Assembly (NCBI GenBank): GCA_030603495.1
Contig: JAUVXR010000053.1
Coordinates: forward strand, 1 to 7,390
Origin: a bacterium
GTDB lineage: Bacteria; Armatimonadota; Zipacnadia; Zipacnadales; Zipacnadaceae
Length of the DNA stretch: 7,390 bases
Reading direction: 5' to 3'
The notes under the pieces were generated by a model. It saw nothing but the letters and a program-made list of their open reading frames with translations, searched no databases and was not told the origin of the DNA. Shown here one piece after another: positions 2-7,390 of the stretch; the stretch's first letter is position 1; the number at the start of each line of letters is the position of its first letter. Both the position numbers and the translations under genes were made by a program.

Positions 2-307
2 CGCGCCCTACGAGTTCATTTGGACGAGGCCGAAGCGATCTTTACGAGACAGGGTAAATACGTGAAGAGCCTCGAGATCACTTTTTTTCGGGGCCTGCTT
101 CATCAGGAGCTGGGTGAATATGAGCAGGCCGAAGAAGTCTACAGCGGCCTCCTCGATGAATTCGAACGCTCGCGACACGTGCTCTACACGGCCAAGGTCG
201 CCAGAGCCCTGTCCACTGTGCAGGAACAGCTCGTGGGTCGTGAAACCGACGCGTTGATCAATCTTGAAAAAAGCGTGCAGAACTATGACAACTTCATCCG
301 GCTGCTG
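2..307 (+). pseudogene. 3' part of a TPR-repeat protein gene, interrupted by a transposon
   Basis: The frame is open from the left window edge, so the true start lies outside. The translation is helical and rich in the alternating small, aromatic and acidic pattern of tetratricopeptide repeats: AEAIFTRQGKYVKSLEITFF, then RGLLHQELGEYEQAEEVYSG, then VARALSTVQEQLV and DALINLEKSVQNYDNFIRLL. TPR units form superhelical scaffolds for protein-protein contacts. No enzymatic domain is visible in this portion. After about residue 100 the frame runs on to a stop at 416-418, but that tail is arginine- and cysteine-rich, looks unlike a TPR and probably lies inside the transposon. If the transposon is removed at the shared GCTGCTG, the frame continues from 4726 as TLYTHLGSA before reaching the IS3 element at 4753. 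The TPR assignment is from sequence pattern; the exact family is not recognised. Confidence 0.6.
301..307. repeat. Candidate target-site duplication, left copy
   Basis: GCTGCTG here is repeated at 4719-4725 across the GC-rich transposon. The left copy falls where the TPR-like translation ends, and joining the copies leaves the reading frame open. The sequence is low in complexity and seven bases long, so chance is possible. A duplication of five bases (GCTGC), common for this transposase class, would fit inside it. Confidence 0.35.
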
Positions 308-330
308 TTGCGTTGCGCGCCCAGAGACGT

Positions 331-360
331 AGGCGGTTGCAGGCGGAGTGACACGGAGTG
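331..360. repeat. Three 10-bp direct repeats in the transposon left end
   Basis: Three consecutive decamers read AGGCGGTTGC, AGGCGGAGTG and ACACGGAGTG. The first two share AGGCGG and the last two share CGGAGTG. They lie about 25 bp inside the presumed left terminus. One-helical-turn spacing would place each unit on the same DNA face, as expected for sites bound by a transposase or accessory protein. The repeat is seen directly; binding is inference. Confidence 0.4.
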
Positions 361-370
361 TGGCAGATGG

Positions 371-414
371 CCGTTCCGTTCCGAGCGAGCCCCTGGTGCG
401 GAACAGCGGAACGG
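371..414. repeat. Inverted repeat downstream of the operon, within the transposon left end
   Basis: CCGTTCCGTTCCG at 371-383 is complementary to CGGAACAGCGGAACGG at 399-414, apart from a 3-base bulge (AGC) in the second arm. The loop is 15 bases. It starts 40 bp after the stop of the last operon gene, so it could fold in the transcript as a 3' end. No T-run follows on the minus strand, so a factor-independent terminator is not supported. It could equally be a protein-binding site at the transposon end. Confidence 0.45.
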
Positions 415-453
415 GTGATGGTTTCGCGGGGAGGCGTATCTACAACAGTGAGT

Positions 454-1422
454 TCAGCGGAAGAGGTCTGTCTGGGAAAATTCGTGCTCAAGAGGTAGGC
501 TCCAGCCGCCGGGGCCGCGTACGGCGAGTCCACGTTTTTCAAGGTTTTGCAGGGCGTCGCCGAGCCGGGCGTTGTTGACGCGTAGCTGTTTGCGTAGCGC
601 TGTCCTGAAGAGGGGCTTGTGGGAACGGCGCAGTTCGCAGCGTATCGCCTCGCCAAGAGGTGGTGGGGTAGCGTCGTTGCTGTCGATGAGGAGCCTGAGC
701 GGCTCGCCGTTGCCTGCAACGAGGCGCAACAGCACGGGATCGTGTGTAGGGGCGGCGCGGTGCTCGACGGTGAGGAGCAGGCGTTTATCATCGCGGCGGA
801 CCAGATAGCAGGCGGAGTCGATCCAGGCGTGGAGGTCGGAGCTGCCCCGCAGCGCCTGGCCGAGGTCGCGGCGGGAGCGCTTGGCCATGTGATGGACGAG
901 CACGATGGAGAGTTGGTGACGGCGGTTGATGTCGCGCAGGAAGCCCAGCAGACCGGAGACATCGGCTGCGCTGTTCTCATCCAGGCGGTGCAAGCGCACC
1001 AGTGGGTCCAGTACCAGCAGCTTGGGTTGGAGTTCCACCAGCGTCTGGTCCAGAGCGCGCTGGTCGTGCTCGAGGTCAAGGCGAAGGCTGGGTGCGGTGA
1101 CGACGTGAAGATTGAGGCTGCGCAGTGCGAGTCCTCGGTGCCGGCACAACTGAGCGACGCGGTCGCGGACGCGTGGCAGCGCGTCCTCGGCGAGGTAGAC
1201 GACCACCGGCCCCGGGGTGTGGACCTCGAAGTGGCCTAGGCAAGCGGTACCGGAGGCCACAGAGACCGCCAAATCCAGCGCCATCATCGACTTGCAGGTT
1301 TTGGGCGCGCCACCGATCACGCCGACAGCACAGGCGCTCCAGAGGTCCTGGACGAGCCACTGAGGCCCGTCGGGCTCGGGATTGATAGCATGGACCAGAA
1401 GCGTTGGCAGGGGCTTGCTCAT
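454..1422 (-). CDS. RepA-like RecA-fold ATPase (AAA_25 type), transposon accessory protein
   Basis: This is the last gene of the transposon operon, 322 residues. A P-loop GGAPKTCKS lies at residues 37-45 with a cysteine where the classical motif has its last glycine. Walker B LLVLDP follows at about 135-140, and LVHHM near 176 resembles the RecA/DnaB-fold segment after strand 4. Residues 40-225 match the hexameric plasmid-RepA helicase type. Residues 255-310 look like a winged helix that could bind DNA. I chose ATG at 1422 because it overlaps the upstream stop as ATGA, exactly like the other two junctions; a GTG at 1428 adds two residues. From memory, relatives sit beside ExeA-like ATPases and DDE transposases in many bacteria, and a cysteine in the P-loop is common among them. 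The role in transposition is unknown; target choice or replication at the junction is conceivable. Confidence 0.85.
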   Translation of the reverse strand: MSKPLPTLLVHAINPEPDGPQWLVQDLWSACAVGVIGGAPKTCKSMMALDLAVSVASGTACLGHFEVHTPGPVVVYLAEDALPRVRDRVAQLCRHRGLALRSLNLHVVTAPSLRLDLEHDQRALDQTLVELQPKLLVLDPLVRLHRLDENSAADVSGLLGFLRDINRRHQLSIVLVHHMAKRSRRDLGQALRGSSDLHAWIDSACYLVRRDDKRLLLTVEHRAAPTHDPVLLRLVAGNGEPLRLLIDSNDATPPPLGEAIRCELRRSHKPLFRTALRKQLRVNNARLGDALQNLEKRGLAVRGPGGWSLPLEHEFSQTDLFR

Positions 1423-2225
1423 GACCACAGTAGGTTGCGTGCCGCGATCACTTCGGTCGCGGAGACGGCCGAGGAGGCAGCTTTGGATGCGAGTTCTAGG
1501 GACTTGAGCGCGAGGCGGTCGATGGCGCGCAAGTTGCCGCGGCTCATTTCGAAGAGAGCCTCGTGGGCGTCGGTGTCGAAGGGGTCGGAGTGTGCCCCAG
1601 CGACGGTGCAGCGATGGACGACGTAGGAGCGAGTCTCATCGCGGGAGAGCAACCGCAGGGTGGCGAAGTGGGCCAAGCGCTGGGCCATCGCCGTCTGTTC
1701 AGGGCGGCCGAGGAGGGTCTTGAGCGGCGGCTGTCCCGCGAGTATCAGCGACACGACGAGGCGGCTGTCCATGTCGAAGTTGGTCAGCAGGCGCAGCATG
1801 GCCAGAGACTCGGGGCGTAGGTCGTGGGCCTCGTCCAGCACGATCACGGAGCGCATCCCGTCGGCGCCCGAGATGTGTTCGAAGGCGTCCTGCAGCTTGC
1901 GCACCAGGGCCGGGTAGATGCCCGTCGGCGAGAGTCCACAAGCGGCGGCGATCTCCTTGCACAGGTCGCGTTTGGACAGCCCGGTCACCTTGACGTAGCG
2001 GACTTGGTAACGGGTCTCGGGCAACAGTGAGACCAGCACCCGCAAGGCGACGGTCTTGCCGGTGCCGGCCGGCGCGATGAGAGCGGCACTCATACGCCGC
2101 CGGACCGCTTCGGCCAGGGCCTCAGCCGCCTCGGCCTGGTAGGGGAGCACAAAGCGTTCGGCGACGGACAACTCACGGGTGAAGGGGGTTTTACGGAAGC
2201 CCAACGGGCTCAGGTCGATGCTCAT
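1419..2225 (-). CDS. ExeA/TniB/MuB-type AAA+ ATPase, transposition partner
   Basis: The protein has 268 residues and starts MSIDLSPLGFRKTPFTREL, the PFxxxP-like opening typical of ExeA-family ATPases. Walker A APAGTGKT is at residues 51-58, Walker B VIVLDEAH at 127-134, and the sensor-1 strand LILAGQP at about 160-166. An arginine-rich segment (RLLSRDETRSYV) and a C-terminal helical lid (MSRGNLRAIDRLAL) complete an AAA+ module. In Mu, Tn552, Tn5053 and Tn7 the equivalent ATPase polymerises on target DNA and activates or directs the transposase; that role is inferred here from family and operon position. The ATG overlaps the transposase stop as ATGA and its own stop overlaps the repA-like start the same way. 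The gene appears intact. IstB-type ATPases of IS21 are a more distant alternative. Confidence 0.88.
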   Translation of the reverse strand: MSIDLSPLGFRKTPFTRELSVAERFVLPYQAEAAEALAEAVRRRMSAALIAPAGTGKTVALRVLVSLLPETRYQVRYVKVTGLSKRDLCKEIAAACGLSPTGIYPALVRKLQDAFEHISGADGMRSVIVLDEAHDLRPESLAMLRLLTNFDMDSRLVVSLILAGQPPLKTLLGRPEQTAMAQRLAHFATLRLLSRDETRSYVVHRCTVAGAHSDPFDTDAHEALFEMSRGNLRAIDRLALKSLELASKAASSAVSATEVIAARNLLWS

Positions 2226-3595
2226 AGGTCGTTCTCCTTATCCTGCTCATCGCGGAAGCCTCCATCGGAGTCGACCAGCGGTCGCAGGTCGTGGTCGAAG
2301 GCCAGACGAGCAGCGGTGTTTGGGATGCCCTCGGAGGACAGGGGCTGCTCATCGCCGAGGGAGCTGCGGCGTTCGGTTGCGTTGGCGTGCGGGTCAAGCT
2401 CGGCCAGCTGCACCATACGGCCCTCGTGCAGGACCCAGAACCGGCCATCCAGGACGTGGCGGGTCACTTGGACCCAGCTATCTCCCATGCCACGCGGGGC
2501 CTCCCACAGCCGACCGTCAGCCCTGATGACGTGGTCGGTGGAGACCTTGCGCGGCTCACGTACGACGAAGCGGCGGTAGAGATCGGCCTCATCTGCGGGG
2601 AAGCGCAGGGGCCGTCCGGCTTCCCAGTGCTGTCTGGGAGGGTCGCCTCCTAGCGTCTCGTGAGGGGCGTCGTTATAGCGGTCAAGGAAGTGCCGAGCTC
2701 GCAGGGTGAGGGCGTGGCAGTCGGGATCGACGTCGACGCTGCCGTCCAGGGACCTCAGCAGCTGATCGCCGGCGGTGCGGTTGAAGCGTTCCAGGGCGCC
2801 GTGCCCCTGGGGGTACTTGGCCTTGCCGTGGATGAGCCAGGCCCCCAGTCCGCCCTGCACCACGGCAAGCGTGTCGTTGGAGATGAAGCCGGGGCCCCGG
2901 TCCAGATACACCAGGTCTGGCAGCCCATGCTTGGTGACCATGCCGTAGAGCCCGTGCAGGAACAACTCCGTGGATTCCGCGGTGCCCACCAGCGCTTCCA
3001 GCCCATAGCGGGTGGCATCGTCGAGGAAAAACAACACTACCCGACGCAGGCGGGTACCGCCGGCTCGAAAGTGCTTGCCGTCGGCGAGCACGCACTGCAT
3101 GCGGTGGGGGTAGCGCCATCTACGCATGTCGCCCTCGCTCTTGCTGGGACGCGCGCGGGTCGGCAGCCCCATCCGCCGGCAGGCCCTCCAGGCCGTGGTC
3201 CGGTCGATGGGCAGATCGGCGGCGATGATGCCGCGGGTCTTAGCCCGGCGCAGCAACTCGGGGACCGAAGCCCGTGGGTCACACTGTTTCTCGGTGCGGA
3301 GGAAGGCGACGAGCGCCTCGCTGAGAGCTACCGAGGTTTCGGTCCGCTTGCGGCTTCGGGGTGCGAGGGCCTCGATGTCGCCGGTCGCGTACGCGGCTCG
3401 CCAGCGCTGCAAGGTACGCACGCTCACCTGCACGGGGCGACCGTCGGGGTAGGCATGCTGTCGGTCGGCGACCTCGCGCACCGCAGCACTCTGCGGCGAG
3501 CCGCTCTGCACGAGCGCCTCGACCTGGGCAAGCACCGAGTAGCGCAGCAGCGCCTCTGGGGAAACAGATGGCAGTGGACGGTGTTGATTGTTCAT
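2222..3595 (-). CDS. DD(36)E transposase, Mu/TniA-like with integrase core
   Basis: The protein has 457 residues. Residues 20-75 contain a helix-turn-helix region ending VSVRTLQRWRAAYA, and 100-150 a second one (TTAWRACRRMGLP), both expected to bind transposon ends. The integrase core gives D172 in ADGKH, D232 in YLDRGPGF and E269 in GALERFNR, with 36 residues between the last two, the retroviral-integrase/Mu arrangement. Residues 340-400 resemble the beta-barrel that follows the core in Mu and TniA transposases (VIRADGRLWEAP). The protein would cut the 3' ends of the element and join them to target DNA. All catalytic residues are present and no frameshift is visible, so it could be active. 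The start ATG overlaps the upstream stop as ATGA. It belongs to the rve/Mu-transposase group; I cannot assign a named IS or Tn. Confidence 0.9.
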   Translation of the reverse strand: MNNQHRPLPSVSPEALLRYSVLAQVEALVQSGSPQSAAVREVADRQHAYPDGRPVQVSVRTLQRWRAAYATGDIEALAPRSRKRTETSVALSEALVAFLRTEKQCDPRASVPELLRRAKTRGIIAADLPIDRTTAWRACRRMGLPTRARPSKSEGDMRRWRYPHRMQCVLADGKHFRAGGTRLRRVVLFFLDDATRYGLEALVGTAESTELFLHGLYGMVTKHGLPDLVYLDRGPGFISNDTLAVVQGGLGAWLIHGKAKYPQGHGALERFNRTAGDQLLRSLDGSVDVDPDCHALTLRARHFLDRYNDAPHETLGGDPPRQHWEAGRPLRFPADEADLYRRFVVREPRKVSTDHVIRADGRLWEAPRGMGDSWVQVTRHVLDGRFWVLHEGRMVQLAELDPHANATERRSSLGDEQPLSSEGIPNTAARLAFDHDLRPLVDSDGGFRDEQDKENDL

Positions 3596-4425
3596 AACCC
3601 AGATGATAACACAACTCCAGGTGCCGCCGCATCAGGTAAATTCGTGGGTGGCGGACTGCGGCCCCGGGGGGCAGCGGCACCAGGGTGTTCCCTACGTTCG
3701 GAAGGGGCTATGACCCAGGTCCCTCGATCTGCATCCCAGCGCTGTGGGTGCCGCATGGCCCACAGCCCACTGACCGCACCGGCGGCCGGCATCCGGTCCA
3801 ACAGGGAGGCTTGGATGGGGATCGCCAGAAGCACGGCCTGGATCGCTGCGCCACGCATCTTCCAGCTGCCGGCCCAGGTCCTGGCCCCAGTGAAGAGCCT
3901 CATCGTCGCTACTGACAGGCGCGTAGCGATTCGCTCCCGAACCCCGTCATCCAGCTGCGGATGGACGCCCAGGAGGCGACCGCTCAACTGTAATCGAGAT
4001 CCCTGCGTCCGACGGCGCCGGGGGTCGTCCCACGGGCTTTCCGCCGGCCACCATTCGCCCTTGGCCGCATCCACAGCGGCAGCGAAGAGCGTCGTCTCCC
4101 AGAGCGGCTGCCCCGTCGCAGCGTCCAGCAGCAGCTCTCCCGACGGGCTGTACGGCGCCACAGGCTCGCGGCCATAGGGAAAATGCCCCGGCGGATACAG
4201 CGTGTAGCGCCCCTGCGGATGTGCCGAGCAGCCCACCACCGCAAGCGGGAAGCACGGGCCGGTCTTGCGTAAACGGTAGTGATCGACGAAAATAGAGCAC
4301 GTCTGCGCCCCTGTGGCGAAGACGCAGCGCGACGGCAGATCGGGGCGAAGCACACCATCGGTGTCCGCCTTGTATGTCGTCGTCGCGAACGGGAGGCGTT
4401 CCTGGGTTTGCGGCCTGGGGGACAC
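3592..4425 (-). CDS. Uncharacterised putative zinc-binding protein, first gene of the transposon operon
   Basis: The protein has 277 residues and I do not recognise it with certainty. Its N-terminal third has C34, C43, H49, C58, C66 and H69 within 36 residues, a likely zinc-ribbon or zinc-finger. The conspicuous stretch RYTLYPPGHFPYGREPV follows at about 73-89. Residues 145-210 are helical (RERIATRLSVATMRLFTGA), and the last 30 residues are proline- and alanine-rich and probably disordered. The zinc region reminds me of small transposon-associated zinc-finger proteins such as DUF6431, but this is memory, not a match. Start is GTG at 4425: an in-frame TGA lies immediately before it, and GAGAGG sits six bases upstream as a ribosome site. 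The stop overlaps the transposase start as ATGA. By position it may be a DNA-binding regulator or transposition accessory factor. Confidence 0.7.
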   Translation of the reverse strand: MSPRPQTQERLPFATTTYKADTDGVLRPDLPSRCVFATGAQTCSIFVDHYRLRKTGPCFPLAVVGCSAHPQGRYTLYPPGHFPYGREPVAPYSPSGELLLDAATGQPLWETTLFAAAVDAAKGEWWPAESPWDDPRRRRTQGSRLQLSGRLLGVHPQLDDGVRERIATRLSVATMRLFTGARTWAGSWKMRGAAIQAVLLAIPIQASLLDRMPAAGAVSGLWAMRHPQRWDADRGTWVIAPSERREHPGAAAPRGRSPPPTNLPDAAAPGVVLSSGL

Positions 4426-4487
4426 TCAAAGCCTCTCATTTGCCTCGGCCGGCCGTTACTACACGAACAGTCGAGGTCTCCTAAACA

Positions 4488-4522
4488 GTGAAGCCCGCAG
4501 CCTTCATCGCTGCGGGCTTCAC
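4488..4522. repeat. Perfect 13-bp hairpin in the operon leader
   Basis: GTGAAGCCCGCAG (4488-4500) pairs perfectly with CTGCGGGCTTCAC (4510-4522) around a 9-base loop. It sits 63 bases upstream of the first operon gene. Neither strand shows a following T-run: the minus strand continues TGTTTAGGAG and the plus strand ACTCTAAACT. A classical intrinsic terminator is therefore doubtful. Possible roles are a leader hairpin that limits read-through from outside transcription, or a protein-binding palindrome. Confidence 0.6.
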
Positions 4523-4600
4523 ACTCTAAACTCTCCACGCCGTTTCCACCACCCACCCAGGGCTGAGTCCGGATCAGAAGAGCCGGAGGTGGCGAGGTGG

Positions 4601-4664
4601 GTTATGCACATGGAACCCCGGCGGTCGGATTTTCAACGATTCGCCGCCACCCCCTATGCATAAC
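4601..4664. repeat. Imperfect inverted repeat near the transposon right end
   Basis: GTTATGCA (4601-4608) is complementary to TGCATAAC (4657-4664), and inside it GGCGG (4620-4624) is complementary to CCGCC (4644-4648). The intervening bases pair poorly. The structure lies about 55 bp inside the presumed right terminus, where end-binding sites would be expected. Confidence 0.35.
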
Positions 4665-4718
4665 AACTAGATGGGCGACTGTAAGGGGGGAGTCCTGGTT
4701 GTCGTCAGAGGAGGAAAT

Positions 4719-4725
4719 GCTGCTG
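4719..4725. repeat. Candidate target-site duplication, right copy
   Basis: This second copy of GCTGCTG matches 301-307. Reading on from here in the TPR frame gives LLTLYTHLGSA before the IS3 element starts, so about 27 bases of the original gene may survive between the two elements. Confidence 0.35.
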
Positions 4726-4752
4726 ACGCTTTACACACATCTTGGTTCAGCG

Positions 4753-4777
4753 TGAAATGTAATTTCTAGGTTCTCGG
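4753..4777. repeat. IS3 element terminal inverted repeat, left (3' of OrfB)
   Basis: TGAAATGTAATTTCTAGG and the following TTCTCGG align imperfectly with the other end read on the minus strand. The best matching blocks are TG, AAT, AATTT and TCTCG, with one gap each way. Confidence 0.5.
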
Positions 4778-4790
4778 ATAAGCAGTAGTA

Positions 4791-4811
4791 TTTGGGGGCT
4801 CTGCCCCCAAA
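4791..4811 (-). terminator. Perfect 9-bp G/C hairpin downstream of OrfB
   Basis: TTTGGGGGC (4791-4799) pairs with GCCCCCAAA (4803-4811) around the loop TCT. On the minus strand it lies about 200 bases after the OrfB stop and 14 bases before the element end, where it could end transcription or block read-through. It lacks a long T-run, so terminator function is inferred from stem strength and position. Confidence 0.45.
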
Positions 4812-4872
4812 CCCCCGAGGTTTTTGAGGCATGAGAGGCAACTCTGGATATCCTTTGTAGCGAATAGAAGGC

Positions 4873-4894
4873 GGGGAAACCCATAGGTTTCCCC
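4873..4894. repeat. Second hairpin in the IS3 3' tail
   Basis: GGGGAAACC (4873-4881) pairs perfectly with GGTTTCCCC (4886-4894) around CATA. It lies between OrfB and the G/C hairpin at 4791. The same tail holds two GGATATCC palindromes. Function is unknown; it may protect the transcript end. Confidence 0.4.
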
Positions 4895-5007
4895 TGACGG
4901 ATATCCGTCGTAGCCTCATCCGGTTATCCCTCAGCGGGTCGCTCCTCAGCGTTGCCCGCATCTGTTTCACCGGATAGGGATCACTATACATCATTAGCTC
5001 TTTCCTG

Positions 5008-5976
5008 TCAAAGCACTTCGGCTGGGAGGGGCTGAGAGGCCGGCTGTCGATTAGCACGTCTTCTCTCTCGAGCCTCCTGGAGTTTGTAATCTCTCTCTGC
5101 GAAGATGATATTCTCTCGCCCCAACAGCTTGTCCTGGGGTGTGAGGTAGCCGATGGCGCTGTGAAGCCGCACGGTGTTGTAGTGCTCAACATACCGAGTG
5201 ACCACACGAATCCCATCCCGCAGTGAGAGGGGAGTCTTGGGGCGGATGCATTCTTGCCTCAACGATTCGGTGAAACGCTCCAGCTTGCCGTTGCTTTGCG
5301 GGTAGAAAGGCGAGGTGCGGACATGGGTCATGCCACAGATGCGGATGAAGAGCTTGAACTCTCGGGCGATGAACTGTGGACCGTTGTCACTGATGATGCA
5401 AGGGCAAGCCCAGGGAAACTTCTCCCGAGCACGCTGGAGGATGATCTGCACATCTGCCTCGGTCATGCTGGTACGCATCTCCCAGTGGACCAAAAACCTG
5501 CTGTAGCCGTCCAGGATCGTGCACATGTAGAAGAACGTCCCGCAAATGTTTATGTAGCAGATATCTACGTGCCAGTGCTGGTGGGGCTTCGTCGGCTGCT
5601 GGAAGCCTGCGCCCTTCTTGGATGGTTTCTTATTCCACCTGCGGAGCAACCCGGCCCTCTTGAGCACGCGGTAGGTCGTGCTCGGACTCACCGCTACCAC
5701 ATCAGTATCCAGCATCATGAAGGTGACGCGTCGGTAGCCATCGTTTTGATGGGCCAGGTAGAAGACGATGATTGCCCTCTTCTCCCACTCCTGCAGCCAG
5801 AAGTCTCGGGGGACCAGGCGGTTATGCTCGTTTACCATGCCGTAACGCCTCTGCCGGCCATAGAACTTGCTGAGACCGATGCCCAGCCACCGAACAAGCC
5901 TGCTCTTGCCGATCCCAGTCCGTTGGGACCAGCGGAGCACGAAATCCACCACCTCATCTCGTCTATCATGAGGCAC
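5008..5976 (-). CDS. IS3-family transposase OrfB
   Basis: The protein has 322 residues. Residues 1-60 carry the N-terminal HTH_21-like region of IS3 OrfB (MPHDRRDEVVDFVLRWS, then GIGKSRLVRWLGI). The integrase core has D138 in WHVDICYI, D197 in ISDNGPQF and E233 in NGKLERFTE, a perfect DD(35)E triad. HYNTVRLHSAIGYLTPQDKL near 265-284 is the signature end of the core. The final ~35 residues are basic. The GTG at 5976 is only a nominal start; the frame is open upstream to an A8 run at 6004-6011, and IS3 elements normally make an OrfAB fusion by ribosomal frameshifting. The fused protein would catalyse copy-out/paste-in transposition. The core appears intact. Confidence 0.9.
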   Translation of the reverse strand: MPHDRRDEVVDFVLRWSQRTGIGKSRLVRWLGIGLSKFYGRQRRYGMVNEHNRLVPRDFWLQEWEKRAIIVFYLAHQNDGYRRVTFMMLDTDVVAVSPSTTYRVLKRAGLLRRWNKKPSKKGAGFQQPTKPHQHWHVDICYINICGTFFYMCTILDGYSRFLVHWEMRTSMTEADVQIILQRAREKFPWACPCIISDNGPQFIAREFKLFIRICGMTHVRTSPFYPQSNGKLERFTESLRQECIRPKTPLSLRDGIRVVTRYVEHYNTVRLHSAIGYLTPQDKLLGRENIIFAERDYKLQEARERRRANRQPASQPLPAEVL

Positions 5977-6304
5977 CCAGCAGCCTTTCAGATCTCGCCA
6001 CAGTTTTTTTTAACGCCACGTGCTCTTCCATGAGCTCCGAGAGGACCTCGTTCTTCGTTGCCGACTTCTGCTGCAGTTGAGAGATCTTCTTCTCGAGCTT
6101 GGCGTTGGTCTTGTCCGTGTCCTTTTGGAATACCAAGTGACCACCCTCGAAAAGCTCCTTCTGCCGGCGGTAGAACATCGAAGGATCCATGCCGTGCTGA
6201 TCGCAGAGATCCGAAATCGCCACCTGCTCCAAAAGGTGTCTCCTCAGAATGACCACCTTGTCTTTGAGTGTGTAGAATCTCCCCTTCGTAATCTTTACCT
6301 CCAT
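5966..6304 (-). CDS. IS3-family transposase OrfA (helix-turn-helix)
   Basis: The protein has 112 residues. Residues 12-55 form the IS3 OrfA HTH (LKDKVVILRRHLLEQVAISD, then GMDPSMFYRRQKELFEGG). Residues 68-95 are a heptad-rich coiled coil (NAKLEKKISQLQ, NEVLSELMEEHVALKK) for dimerisation. It binds the element ends. The terminal TVARSERLLGAS lies after the A8 run and looks like an out-of-frame tail: one frame over, the same DNA reads KKNCGEI and stops at 5988, which resembles the usual OrfA end in this group. The ATG at 6304 is immediately followed by GGAGG with no ribosome site in front of it, so translation may be leaderless or inefficient. Confidence 0.85.
   Translation of the reverse strand: MEVKITKGRFYTLKDKVVILRRHLLEQVAISDLCDQHGMDPSMFYRRQKELFEGGHLVFQKDTDKTNAKLEKKISQLQQKSATKNEVLSELMEEHVALKKTVARSERLLGAS
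6004..6011 (-). promoter_or_regulatory. A8 slippery run at the OrfA/OrfB junction
   Basis: The minus strand reads TTA AAA AAA ACT in the OrfA frame. IS3-family elements usually use an A-run for -1 frameshifting from OrfA into OrfB. Here a -1 shift leads to KKNCGEI and stop, while OrfB lies in the +1 (or -2) frame. Nine adenines would restore the usual -1 relation, and seven would fuse the two genes directly. Confidence 0.6.
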
Positions 6305-6313
6305 AGCGATATA

Positions 6314-6342
6314 ATGCTATCTCACGAGAGGGAAAATTCCAA
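6314..6342 (-). promoter_or_regulatory. Candidate promoter for OrfA, partly in the terminal repeat
   Basis: On the minus strand TTGGAA (6342-6337) and TAGCAT (6319-6314) are 17 bases apart and resemble a sigma-70 -35/-10 pair. The -35 lies inside the terminal repeat, a common IS3 arrangement. Transcription would begin only a few bases before the OrfA ATG. Confidence 0.35.
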
Positions 6343-6347
6343 TTCCA
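6325..6347. repeat. IS3 element terminal inverted repeat, right (5' of OrfA)
   Basis: Read on the minus strand from 6347 this end begins TGGAATTGGAATTTTCCC and then TCTCG. It pairs imperfectly with the end at 4753-4777. Confidence 0.5.
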
Positions 6348-6493
6348 TCTGAAGCAGCACACAAGCAGCCACCTTCGGATATATGCTTCGCAATCCTCCG
6401 TGTGCCTGCAGCATGTGGATAACCCCAGAGATGGGCGATTTGAATAGTAGCAAAGAGATCAGCCCAGCAGTCAATGACAATAAGCCGTTGAAT

Positions 6494-6509
6494 CAAAGTT
6501 GCCACTTTG
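6494..6509. repeat. Stem-loop in repeat unit 1
   Basis: CAAAGT (6494-6499) pairs with ACTTTG (6504-6509) around TGCC. The equivalent element in unit 2 keeps its stem although the outer base pair differs. Confidence 0.5.
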
Positions 6510-6696
6510 CTAATAGTAAGGAAGAGGAAACAGGATTATTAAATAGGTGGCAGTTTATTTCCGGAACGGGCGCCAATTTTCAGCGGAATATGCATTTTGG
6601 CAATCCTCCGTGTGCCTGCGTGTGGATAACCCCAGAGATGGGTGACTTGAATCAGCAAAGAGATCGGAACATCGGTCAATGCCAATGAGCCGTCGA

Positions 6697-6715
6697 GTAA
6701 AGGTTGCCACTTTAC
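6697..6715. repeat. Stem-loop in repeat unit 2
   Basis: GTAAAG (6697-6702) pairs with CTTTAC (6710-6715) around GTTGCCA. Compared with unit 1, the C-G pair has become T-A, so both partners changed, and an extra G-C pair is added outside. Confidence 0.5.
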
Positions 6716-6757
6716 GAATAGTACAGAATAGACAACTGAGTGAGTAAACAGCCGACA

Positions 6758-6799
6758 GCATATTTCCGGAATGGTTGGTAACTTTGCTTCGGAATATGC
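6758..6799. repeat. Inverted repeat at the unit 2 / unit 3 junction
   Basis: GCATATTTCCG (6758-6768) is complementary to CGGAATATGC (6790-6799) apart from one extra T, with a 21-base loop. A weaker version, TATTTCCG with CGGAATA, spans the unit 1/unit 2 junction. Confidence 0.5.
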
Positions 6800-6897
6800 A
6801 GTTGATATTTCATCTGGGTTGCATAAAAAAGGTGCCGATAAGATTGGCAAGACAATAAAAGGAATCTAGTTTAGATGCAGGGCATCACCACCAGAGG

Positions 6898-7167
6898 TTG
6901 GGAATCTTAATTACCTCGGGTGGCGAATATGATTACCCGCGACATTACACTCCTTACGCCATCACGACTGCAACCAGAACCCTCTCACGTCGACTTCGGG
7001 CGCGCAACGTAATAAGTGGGAGAGACCCTTTAGTTTGTAGATATTGTGGTGAGAAAATGGATATTTGGAGGATATGGCATCCTAAATATAGATTTCCTTG
7101 GGGCTTTTCTTATCCTATGGATAGAAAAGGCAGGAAGAATCGTGTATATTGGTATGAGAAGAAGTAA
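6898..7167 (+). CDS. Short ORF with one CxxC pair, hypothetical or remnant
   Basis: An 89-residue frame reads from a TTG to a TAA at 7165-7167; no ATG start with a ribosome site is evident, so the start is uncertain. The part from about residue 36 is the most protein-like: RDPLVCRYCGEKMDIWRIWH. A single CRYC pair followed by aromatic and basic residues suggests half of a zinc ribbon. The segment vaguely recalls the zinc-ribbon C-terminus of some transposases, such as IS91-like proteins, but I cannot confirm this. The C-terminus is basic and aromatic (GRKNRVYWYEKK). It ends 25 bases before the VapC-like gene and could be co-transcribed with it, but it does not look like a usual VapB antitoxin. 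It may be a decayed gene end. Confidence 0.35.
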   Translation: MGILITSGGEYDYPRHYTPYAITTATRTLSRRLRARNVISGRDPLVCRYCGEKMDIWRIWHPKYRFPWGFSYPMDRKGRKNRVYWYEKK

Positions 7168-7192: not shown

Positions 7193-7390
7193 ATGAATAA
7201 AAAAGTTTACATTGAAACAACTATACCAAGTTTCTATTATGAAATCAGGAAAGAAGCAGAAATGATTGCCCGTAGAAATTGGTCACGCGAATGGTGGGAT
7301 AATTATAGAAAGAATTATGTCAGCGTAACTAGTGAACCTGTTTTAGATGAACTAAGTAGAGGAGACTATCCAAATAAAGATGATACAATT
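7193..7390 (+). CDS. VapC-like PIN-domain toxin, N-terminal part (runs off the window)
   Basis: The frame opens with ATG at 7193 and continues to the window end, giving 66 residues. MNKKVYIETTIPSFYYEIRK is a characteristic opening of one VapC-like PIN-domain group, with the first acidic position as glutamate in YIETTIPS. SEPVLDEL, about 45 residues later, gives the next conserved acidic position of the PIN site. PIN domains are metal-dependent ribonucleases, and VapC toxins cut tRNA or rRNA and are held inactive by a partner antitoxin. AGG six bases before the ATG is the ribosome site. The gene is AT-rich with codon use unlike the transposon genes. No antitoxin gene is recognisable upstream; it may lie after the window end. 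The catalytic C-terminal half is not visible, so activity cannot be judged. Confidence 0.75.
   Translation, partial: MNKKVYIETTIPSFYYEIRKEAEMIARRNWSREWWDNYRKNYVSVTSEPVLDELSRGDYPNKDDTI

Follow-up and report, generated by a model that had tools for sequence, protein, structure and literature searches.

The contig JAUVXR010000053.1, the whole of which (7390 bp, from a metagenome-assembled genome placed in the Armatimonadota) was analysed and is here called the window, carries a transposon of the TnsB/TnsC type at positions 306-7014, in which four genes that we designated CYS, TNP, EXEA and REPA are followed by an inverted GGAAC/GTTCC array. We propose, with a rough probability of 0.4, that REPA and the array form an optional module that would work as an element-encoded replication helicase. 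Sequence comparison establishes the anatomy of the element, the ends it has in common with relatives, the spread of REPA as a module and the association of REPA with the array; the transposition core is of an already known kind, while the recurrent module of predicted helicase and site is new. The features on which the argument turns are as follows.

306-329, plus strand: right terminal inverted repeat, REPA side (TGTTGCGTTGCGCGCCCAGAGACG), pairing with 6991-7012
371-414, no strand assigned: inverted GTTCC/GGAAC iteron-like array just past the REPA stop
1428-454, minus strand: REPA, 324 residues, RSF1010 RepA-like RecA-fold ATPase, likely start at ATG 1422
2225-1419, minus strand: EXEA, 268 residues, AAA+ transposition ATPase of the ExeA/TnsC/MuB kind
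3595-2222, minus strand: TNP, 457 residues, DD(36)E transposase, IS481/TnsB-like
4425-3592, minus strand: CYS, 277 residues, with a conserved Cys/His motif (C34, C43, C66, H69)
6991-7014, minus strand: left terminal inverted repeat, CYS side (TATTACGTTGCGCGCCCGAAGTCG)

The four genes follow one another in the same orientation (minus strand) and form a real operon, as a preliminary description made from this sequence alone had stated. That description ended the unit near 4718, but 308-329 and 6991-7012 pair as a 22-nt inverted repeat (82% complementary), which extends the element to about 7014 and leaves flanks of 305 bp and 376 bp. When ends were compared among relatives, TG at 306-307 proved to be the right terminus and TA at 7013-7014 the left one, where relatives have TG, TC or TA. 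The right end is the same as that of loci L007, L008, L009, L089, L090 and L094, the left end is the same as that of L006 and L141, and 60 bp inside the left terminal repeat match L006, L007 and L008. The earlier view that the four genes make up a single mobile unit is supported: L007 (labelled Nitrospiraceae) and L008 (labelled Dehalococcoidia), from two further metagenome-assembled genomes, hold a 4.49-kb version of the element in which the same inverted repeats bound exactly CYS, TNP, EXEA and REPA. The window genes are ~86% (EXEA), 80–81% (TNP), 80–81% (REPA) and 68–74% (CYS) identical to these counterparts.

TNP had rve and helix-turn-helix matches and matched the NCBIfam IS481 model with 109 bits (E-value 2.5e-31), not reaching the family cut-off of 224 bits; a profile search against solved structures matched it to TnsB of the type V-K CRISPR-associated transposon (8.9e-8). 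The DD(36)E signature proposed earlier is borne out, with D172, D232 and E269 invariant in 15 diverse homologs and 36 residues separating D232 from E269. EXEA has a Pfam AAA_22 match (6e-20), and profile searches against PDB structures matched it to VchTnsC (1.4e-7) and MuB (1.8e-6); it also matched the TnsC V-K model and, among PHROGs, the Mu-type "DNA transposition protein" phrog_296. Neither a resolvase nor TniQ or TnsA was seen in the window, in agreement with the preliminary description. Of the three ATGA overlaps listed there, those at the CYS/TNP and TNP/EXEA junctions are present, and that at EXEA/REPA exists only if REPA begins at ATG 1422; the overlap is absent in one of the transposase clades described below (clade III), and such overlaps point to translational coupling, not to the fixed stoichiometry that had been read into them.

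CYS had been regarded as an extra protein, but a zinc-motif gene stands in first place in nearly all relatives examined, which makes it part of the core. C34, C43, C66 and H69 are invariant in six homologs of CYS, and in ten homologs C43, C66 and H69 are invariant and C34 nearly so. We found no Pfam, NCBIfam or PDB match to CYS, and no match to it among plasmids. In clade II and in three-gene units on plasmids the first gene is a DUF6431 zinc ribbon (PF20020); first genes of L058, L015 and L017 gave this Pfam match, and those of the plasmid units had an additional helix-turn-helix match. A relationship of CYS to DUF6431 was considered and rejected (no Pfam match with the window CYS or that of L141, and a negative profile comparison), so that by all tests made the clade-I first gene appears to be a distinct family; a relationship to TniQ likewise found no profile support. 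Because DUF6431 is found in clade II and the plasmid units and the Cys/His motif is kept in clade I, a zinc-motif first protein is a general feature of these elements, and we infer that it belongs to the transposition core or its regulation.

REPA matched Pfam AAA_25 (1.5e-33) and, in a profile search against solved structures, the hexameric helicase RepA of plasmid RSF1010 (1g8y; E-value 1.4e-11). The motor cores of the two proteins align through the Lys-Ser of Walker A, an AED motif, LDxLxRxH, an HH motif and RGSS. RSF1010 RepA was also the top fold match of REPA, from a low-confidence AlphaFold model (mean pLDDT, the predicted local distance difference test score, was 48–49 for the models of CYS and REPA), and the sequence supports this match independently. 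PHROG matches to REPA included phage primase-helicases. REPA shares motor motifs and fold class with RSF1010 RepA, and a hexameric ring and helicase activity are predicted for it; it differs in being encoded in a transposon, in having no RepB or RepC partners, and in an extra C-terminal region, which is helical and, to judge from the model, may be a winged helix.

REPA follows EXEA in at least four diverged transposase clades: clade I (the window, L006-L010, L089, L090, L094 and L098), clade II (L058, L091, L092 and L103), clade III (L093, L095 and L097) and clade IV (L101 and L105); L006 and L010 break off short of where REPA would lie, so it is not observed in them. L006 was matched to a Hebobacteria record (Armatimonadota), the same phylum as the window genome. 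Most REPA matches stand in the order first gene, TNP, EXEA, REPA, and a later-found locus, L162, has this order too. Between clades, TNP is ~20–29%, EXEA 21–32% and REPA 40–52% identical; within clades the three diverge at similar rates (66%, 68% and 57%, respectively, between L091 and L058; 50%, 59% and 55% between the window and L090). Since REPA is 40–52% identical between clades whose transposases are only ~20–29% identical, it entered the transposons after the transposase clades had separated, and on these comparisons we conclude that REPA has spread between transposons.

The preliminary description had asked whether the fourth gene co-varies with the transposase clade and had treated the four genes as locked together. 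On a 50-row transposase tree 8 changes are required to explain the presence of REPA, 7 of them being forced by well-supported branches, and sister elements differ in whether they carry it. REPA-less members lie inside clades I (L141 and L139), II (L137) and IV (L143 and L147) and beside clade III (L150, L155, L145 and L133). L141, on a 101-kb contig, is a clade-I element with both clade-I ends, in which EXEA and the right end are only ~130 bp apart, and such complete REPA-less sisters do away with a locked set. The common core is the three-gene series of first gene, TNP and EXEA, and most transposase relatives lack REPA: in 282 genomes from the phylum of the Myxococcales record L010, REPA adjoins 11 of 59 transposase matches. 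Strong REPA matches were found in 11 of these 282 genomes and in two more genomes of the window's phylum. Where REPA is missing the position behind EXEA may hold other genes, e.g., a 67-residue protein in L139 and two small proteins in L137. One family of small proteins occupies it in L137, L144, L147 and L155 and another in L139, L151, L153 and others; each recurs across transposase clades, and neither was found in REPA-carrying loci. Because REPA, the small-protein families or nothing can occupy this position, it is an exchangeable slot.

The second part of the module is the array, whose unit varies from GGAAC/GTTCC to GGGAAC in clade III and GGAAAC in clade IV. With an array defined as three or more copies in 90 nt, one was present in 10 of 15 REPA-carrying loci, 0 of 26 REPA-less loci and 0 of 3 loci with a solitary REPA homolog (Fisher 2.7e-6, an optimistic value); most members of the REPA-less set served as an untouched control. 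L162 has the array as well, as a perfect dyad (GAGGACCGTTCCGTGTTCCC / GGGAACGGAACGGTCCTC) directly after REPA. The array often folds as a hairpin and has no T run; it may work in that folded form or as a set of double-stranded binding sites.

In replicative transposons that have been studied in detail, most notably Mu, the forked product of transposition is copied by host restart proteins. By our reading, TNP, aided by the AAA+ ATPase EXEA, would join the 3' ends of the element to the target, and because no second-strand nuclease such as TnsA is present, strand transfer would leave a forked intermediate. REPA would be placed at the array beside the right terminal repeat, perhaps via its C-terminal domain, and as a helicase would start or restart replication across the element, which would become less dependent on the host restart pathway. 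Of the roles the preliminary description had allowed the RepA-like ATPase, replication is thus the one that still reads best, with a mechanism that is pieced together by inference. A broader claim, that several DDE transposon lineages independently acquired a ring helicase and an iteron-like loading site that replace host PriA/DnaB restart in replicative transposition, is possible, though the odds lean against it. If true, transposons with their own hexameric helicase and loading site, swapped among unrelated transposases, would represent a new route to host independence, and the conversion of strand-transfer forks to replication forks could be tested with a small defined set of parts.

Several points weigh against a replication helicase. 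Helicase activity and array binding are predicted properties of REPA, and its Walker A motif in the window and close relatives is GAPKTCKS, Cys standing where a Gly normally precedes the Lys. REPA is dispensable, since L141, in clade I, has both ends but no REPA. The array criterion was not reached in five REPA-carrying loci (L058, L090, L091, L094 and L095), and the Fisher value is optimistic because the motif was chosen on the REPA-carrying set and the elements are related. Finally, one observation in favour of replication has its limits: the clade-IV-like L162 element encodes, after REPA and before its likely right end, a 101-residue DnaG-type CHC2 zinc-finger-like protein (reverse-strand 4191-4496; L162 665-970), but it is a single case and its match (22.8 bits) falls just under the Pfam cut-off of 24.9.

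An alternative that we consider unlikely is that REPA is a regulator of transposition, a ring ATPase docked at the right-end array that controls assembly of transposase and ATPase, expression or target immunity. The array does lie near the right end, where transposases bind; clade III (L093 and L097) has GGAAC/GTTCC copies near the left end too, and one low-confidence predicted model has a winged helix-turn-helix-like order of helices and strands at the REPA C terminus. However, the TnsC/MuB role is already filled by EXEA, REPA-less sister elements with both ends exist, and the nearest known relatives of REPA are replicative helicases. Even with REPA as a regulator, these elements would share a general feature, the exchangeable slot after the AAA+ gene, that has apparently not been described.

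It is improbable that REPA is cargo, e.g., a fitness or counter-defence gene, with the array as its transcription terminator or mRNA hairpin. The exchangeability of the slot, with its two families of small unnamed proteins in other elements, and the frequent folding of the array as a hairpin would suit such a role; yet REPA is found at one and the same position in four clades, often with translational coupling to EXEA, no PADLOC defence model matched it, and the array has no T run and is missing beside solitary REPA genes. We give slightly less credence to REPA and the array as a small replicon that maintains an excised circular element in the manner of a plasmid. A RepA-type helicase with iteron-like repeats is a plasmid-like pairing, to which L162 adds its CHC2-like protein; against this, the window element has no primase or initiator gene, no circular junction was seen, and RSF1010 requires RepB and RepC. 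That the four-gene order is old and inherited, with REPA similarity between clades reflecting stronger constraint, is very improbable, for although REPA groups II and III match clades of the transposase, REPA diverges within clades as fast as TNP, so that slow evolution fails to explain 40–52% identity, and its presence flips between sister elements.

Among known systems, the element resembles the Tn7, Tn5053 and Mu type (TnsB-TnsC, TniA-TniB, MuA-MuB) in its TnsB-related DDE transposase and its TnsC/MuB-related AAA+ ATPase, and relatives L091 and L093 have 5-bp target duplications; it differs in the zinc-motif first gene, the optional REPA module, and the fact that no TnsA, TniQ or resolvase was found in the window element. 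It shares a related transposase core with the IS481 family, but TNP scores far under the family cut-off and the element, at ~4.5 kb, has accessory ATPases. Plasmid units of DUF6431 protein, transposase and AAA ATPase in actinobacteria and proteobacteria (Streptomyces, Rhodococcus and Pandoraea) have the same gene order, a related TNP and an ExeA-like ATPase; unlike the window element they have neither REPA nor the GGAAC array, and the window CYS is not detectably homologous to DUF6431. The plasmids searched held only distant transposases (<60% identity, in three-gene or other units) and RSF1010-type RepA, and there was no close relative of the element among viral contigs and annotated phages. 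We found no description of DUF6431, ExeA-type or RepA-carrying transposons in the literature, most subscription journals being outside our coverage; the IS481-type transposon TnRErm46 of Rhodococcus equi has no such set among its listed genes.

Target duplications of 5 bp were found in clade II at L091 (terminal inverted repeats TGTACCGCCCCG; duplication ACTGG) and in clade III at L093 (terminal inverted repeats TGTTGCC; duplication TCTGT). None was found at the window (GCTGC/AGTGG), L007, L008, L090 or L141; short contigs may join different copies. Absent duplications would fit adjacent deletions by replicative transposition and would equally fit copies joined during assembly of short contigs, and we give them little weight. 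At the window we rejected the absence as proof of replicative transposition: the flanks, each ending within 400 bp, differ strongly in G+C content (0.55 versus 0.34), and the contig may join two copies of the element. Because the window is a whole short contig with flanks so different, these flanks and the host assignment are uncertain. Searches of the window's own genome, one of which covered the flanks and only part of the region of an IS3-type insertion (described below), detected no further copies of the element, so there was no empty site for comparison.

Some relatives showed individual peculiarities. The clade-II REPA of L103 is split by ~3.3 kb of inserted DNA (4130-7431). The contig of L092 (1-4161) starts and stops with the two inverted repeats of a clade-II element, which is what an element present in multiple copies should give. 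A large serine recombinase-like open reading frame (ORF) lies directly downstream of the three-gene element in L153 (1744-3102). The solitary REPA homologs (L099, L100 and L096) have no transposase nearby and no GGAAC array, and in L099 a tyrosine recombinase-like ORF lies ~3 kb from REPA.

The left end of the window element contains ~2.4 kb of foreign DNA, consisting of an IS3-type element and a two-copy 205-nt tandem repeat. The remaining features of this end are as follows.

4488-4522, minus strand: leader hairpin upstream of CYS, a 14-bp perfect inverted repeat
4743-6356, minus strand: IS3-type insertion in the left non-coding end of the transposon (orfA 6304-5966, orfB 5976-5008)
4743 and 6356: candidate ends of the IS3-type insertion (TGGTTCAGCGTGAAATGTAATTT / TGCTTCAGATGGAATTGGAATTT)

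The stem of the leader hairpin is kept with changed sequence in L006, L008, L009, L010 and L090, and with one mismatch in L007; the hairpin perhaps blocks read-through expression. No second copy of the IS3-type insertion was found in the genome with the part compared, which extended up to 5602. Between this insertion and the left inverted repeat, an AT-richer unit of ~205 nt forms two tandem copies (6387-6803). A tetratricopeptide-repeat gene (20-305) is interrupted precisely by the transposon's right end and has no continuation in the other flank. In DNA of 34% G+C, a small ORF with a CxxC motif (6898-7167) crosses the left transposon end, and 7193-7390 holds the beginning of a second, putatively PIN-like ORF (MNKKVYIETTIPSFYYE).

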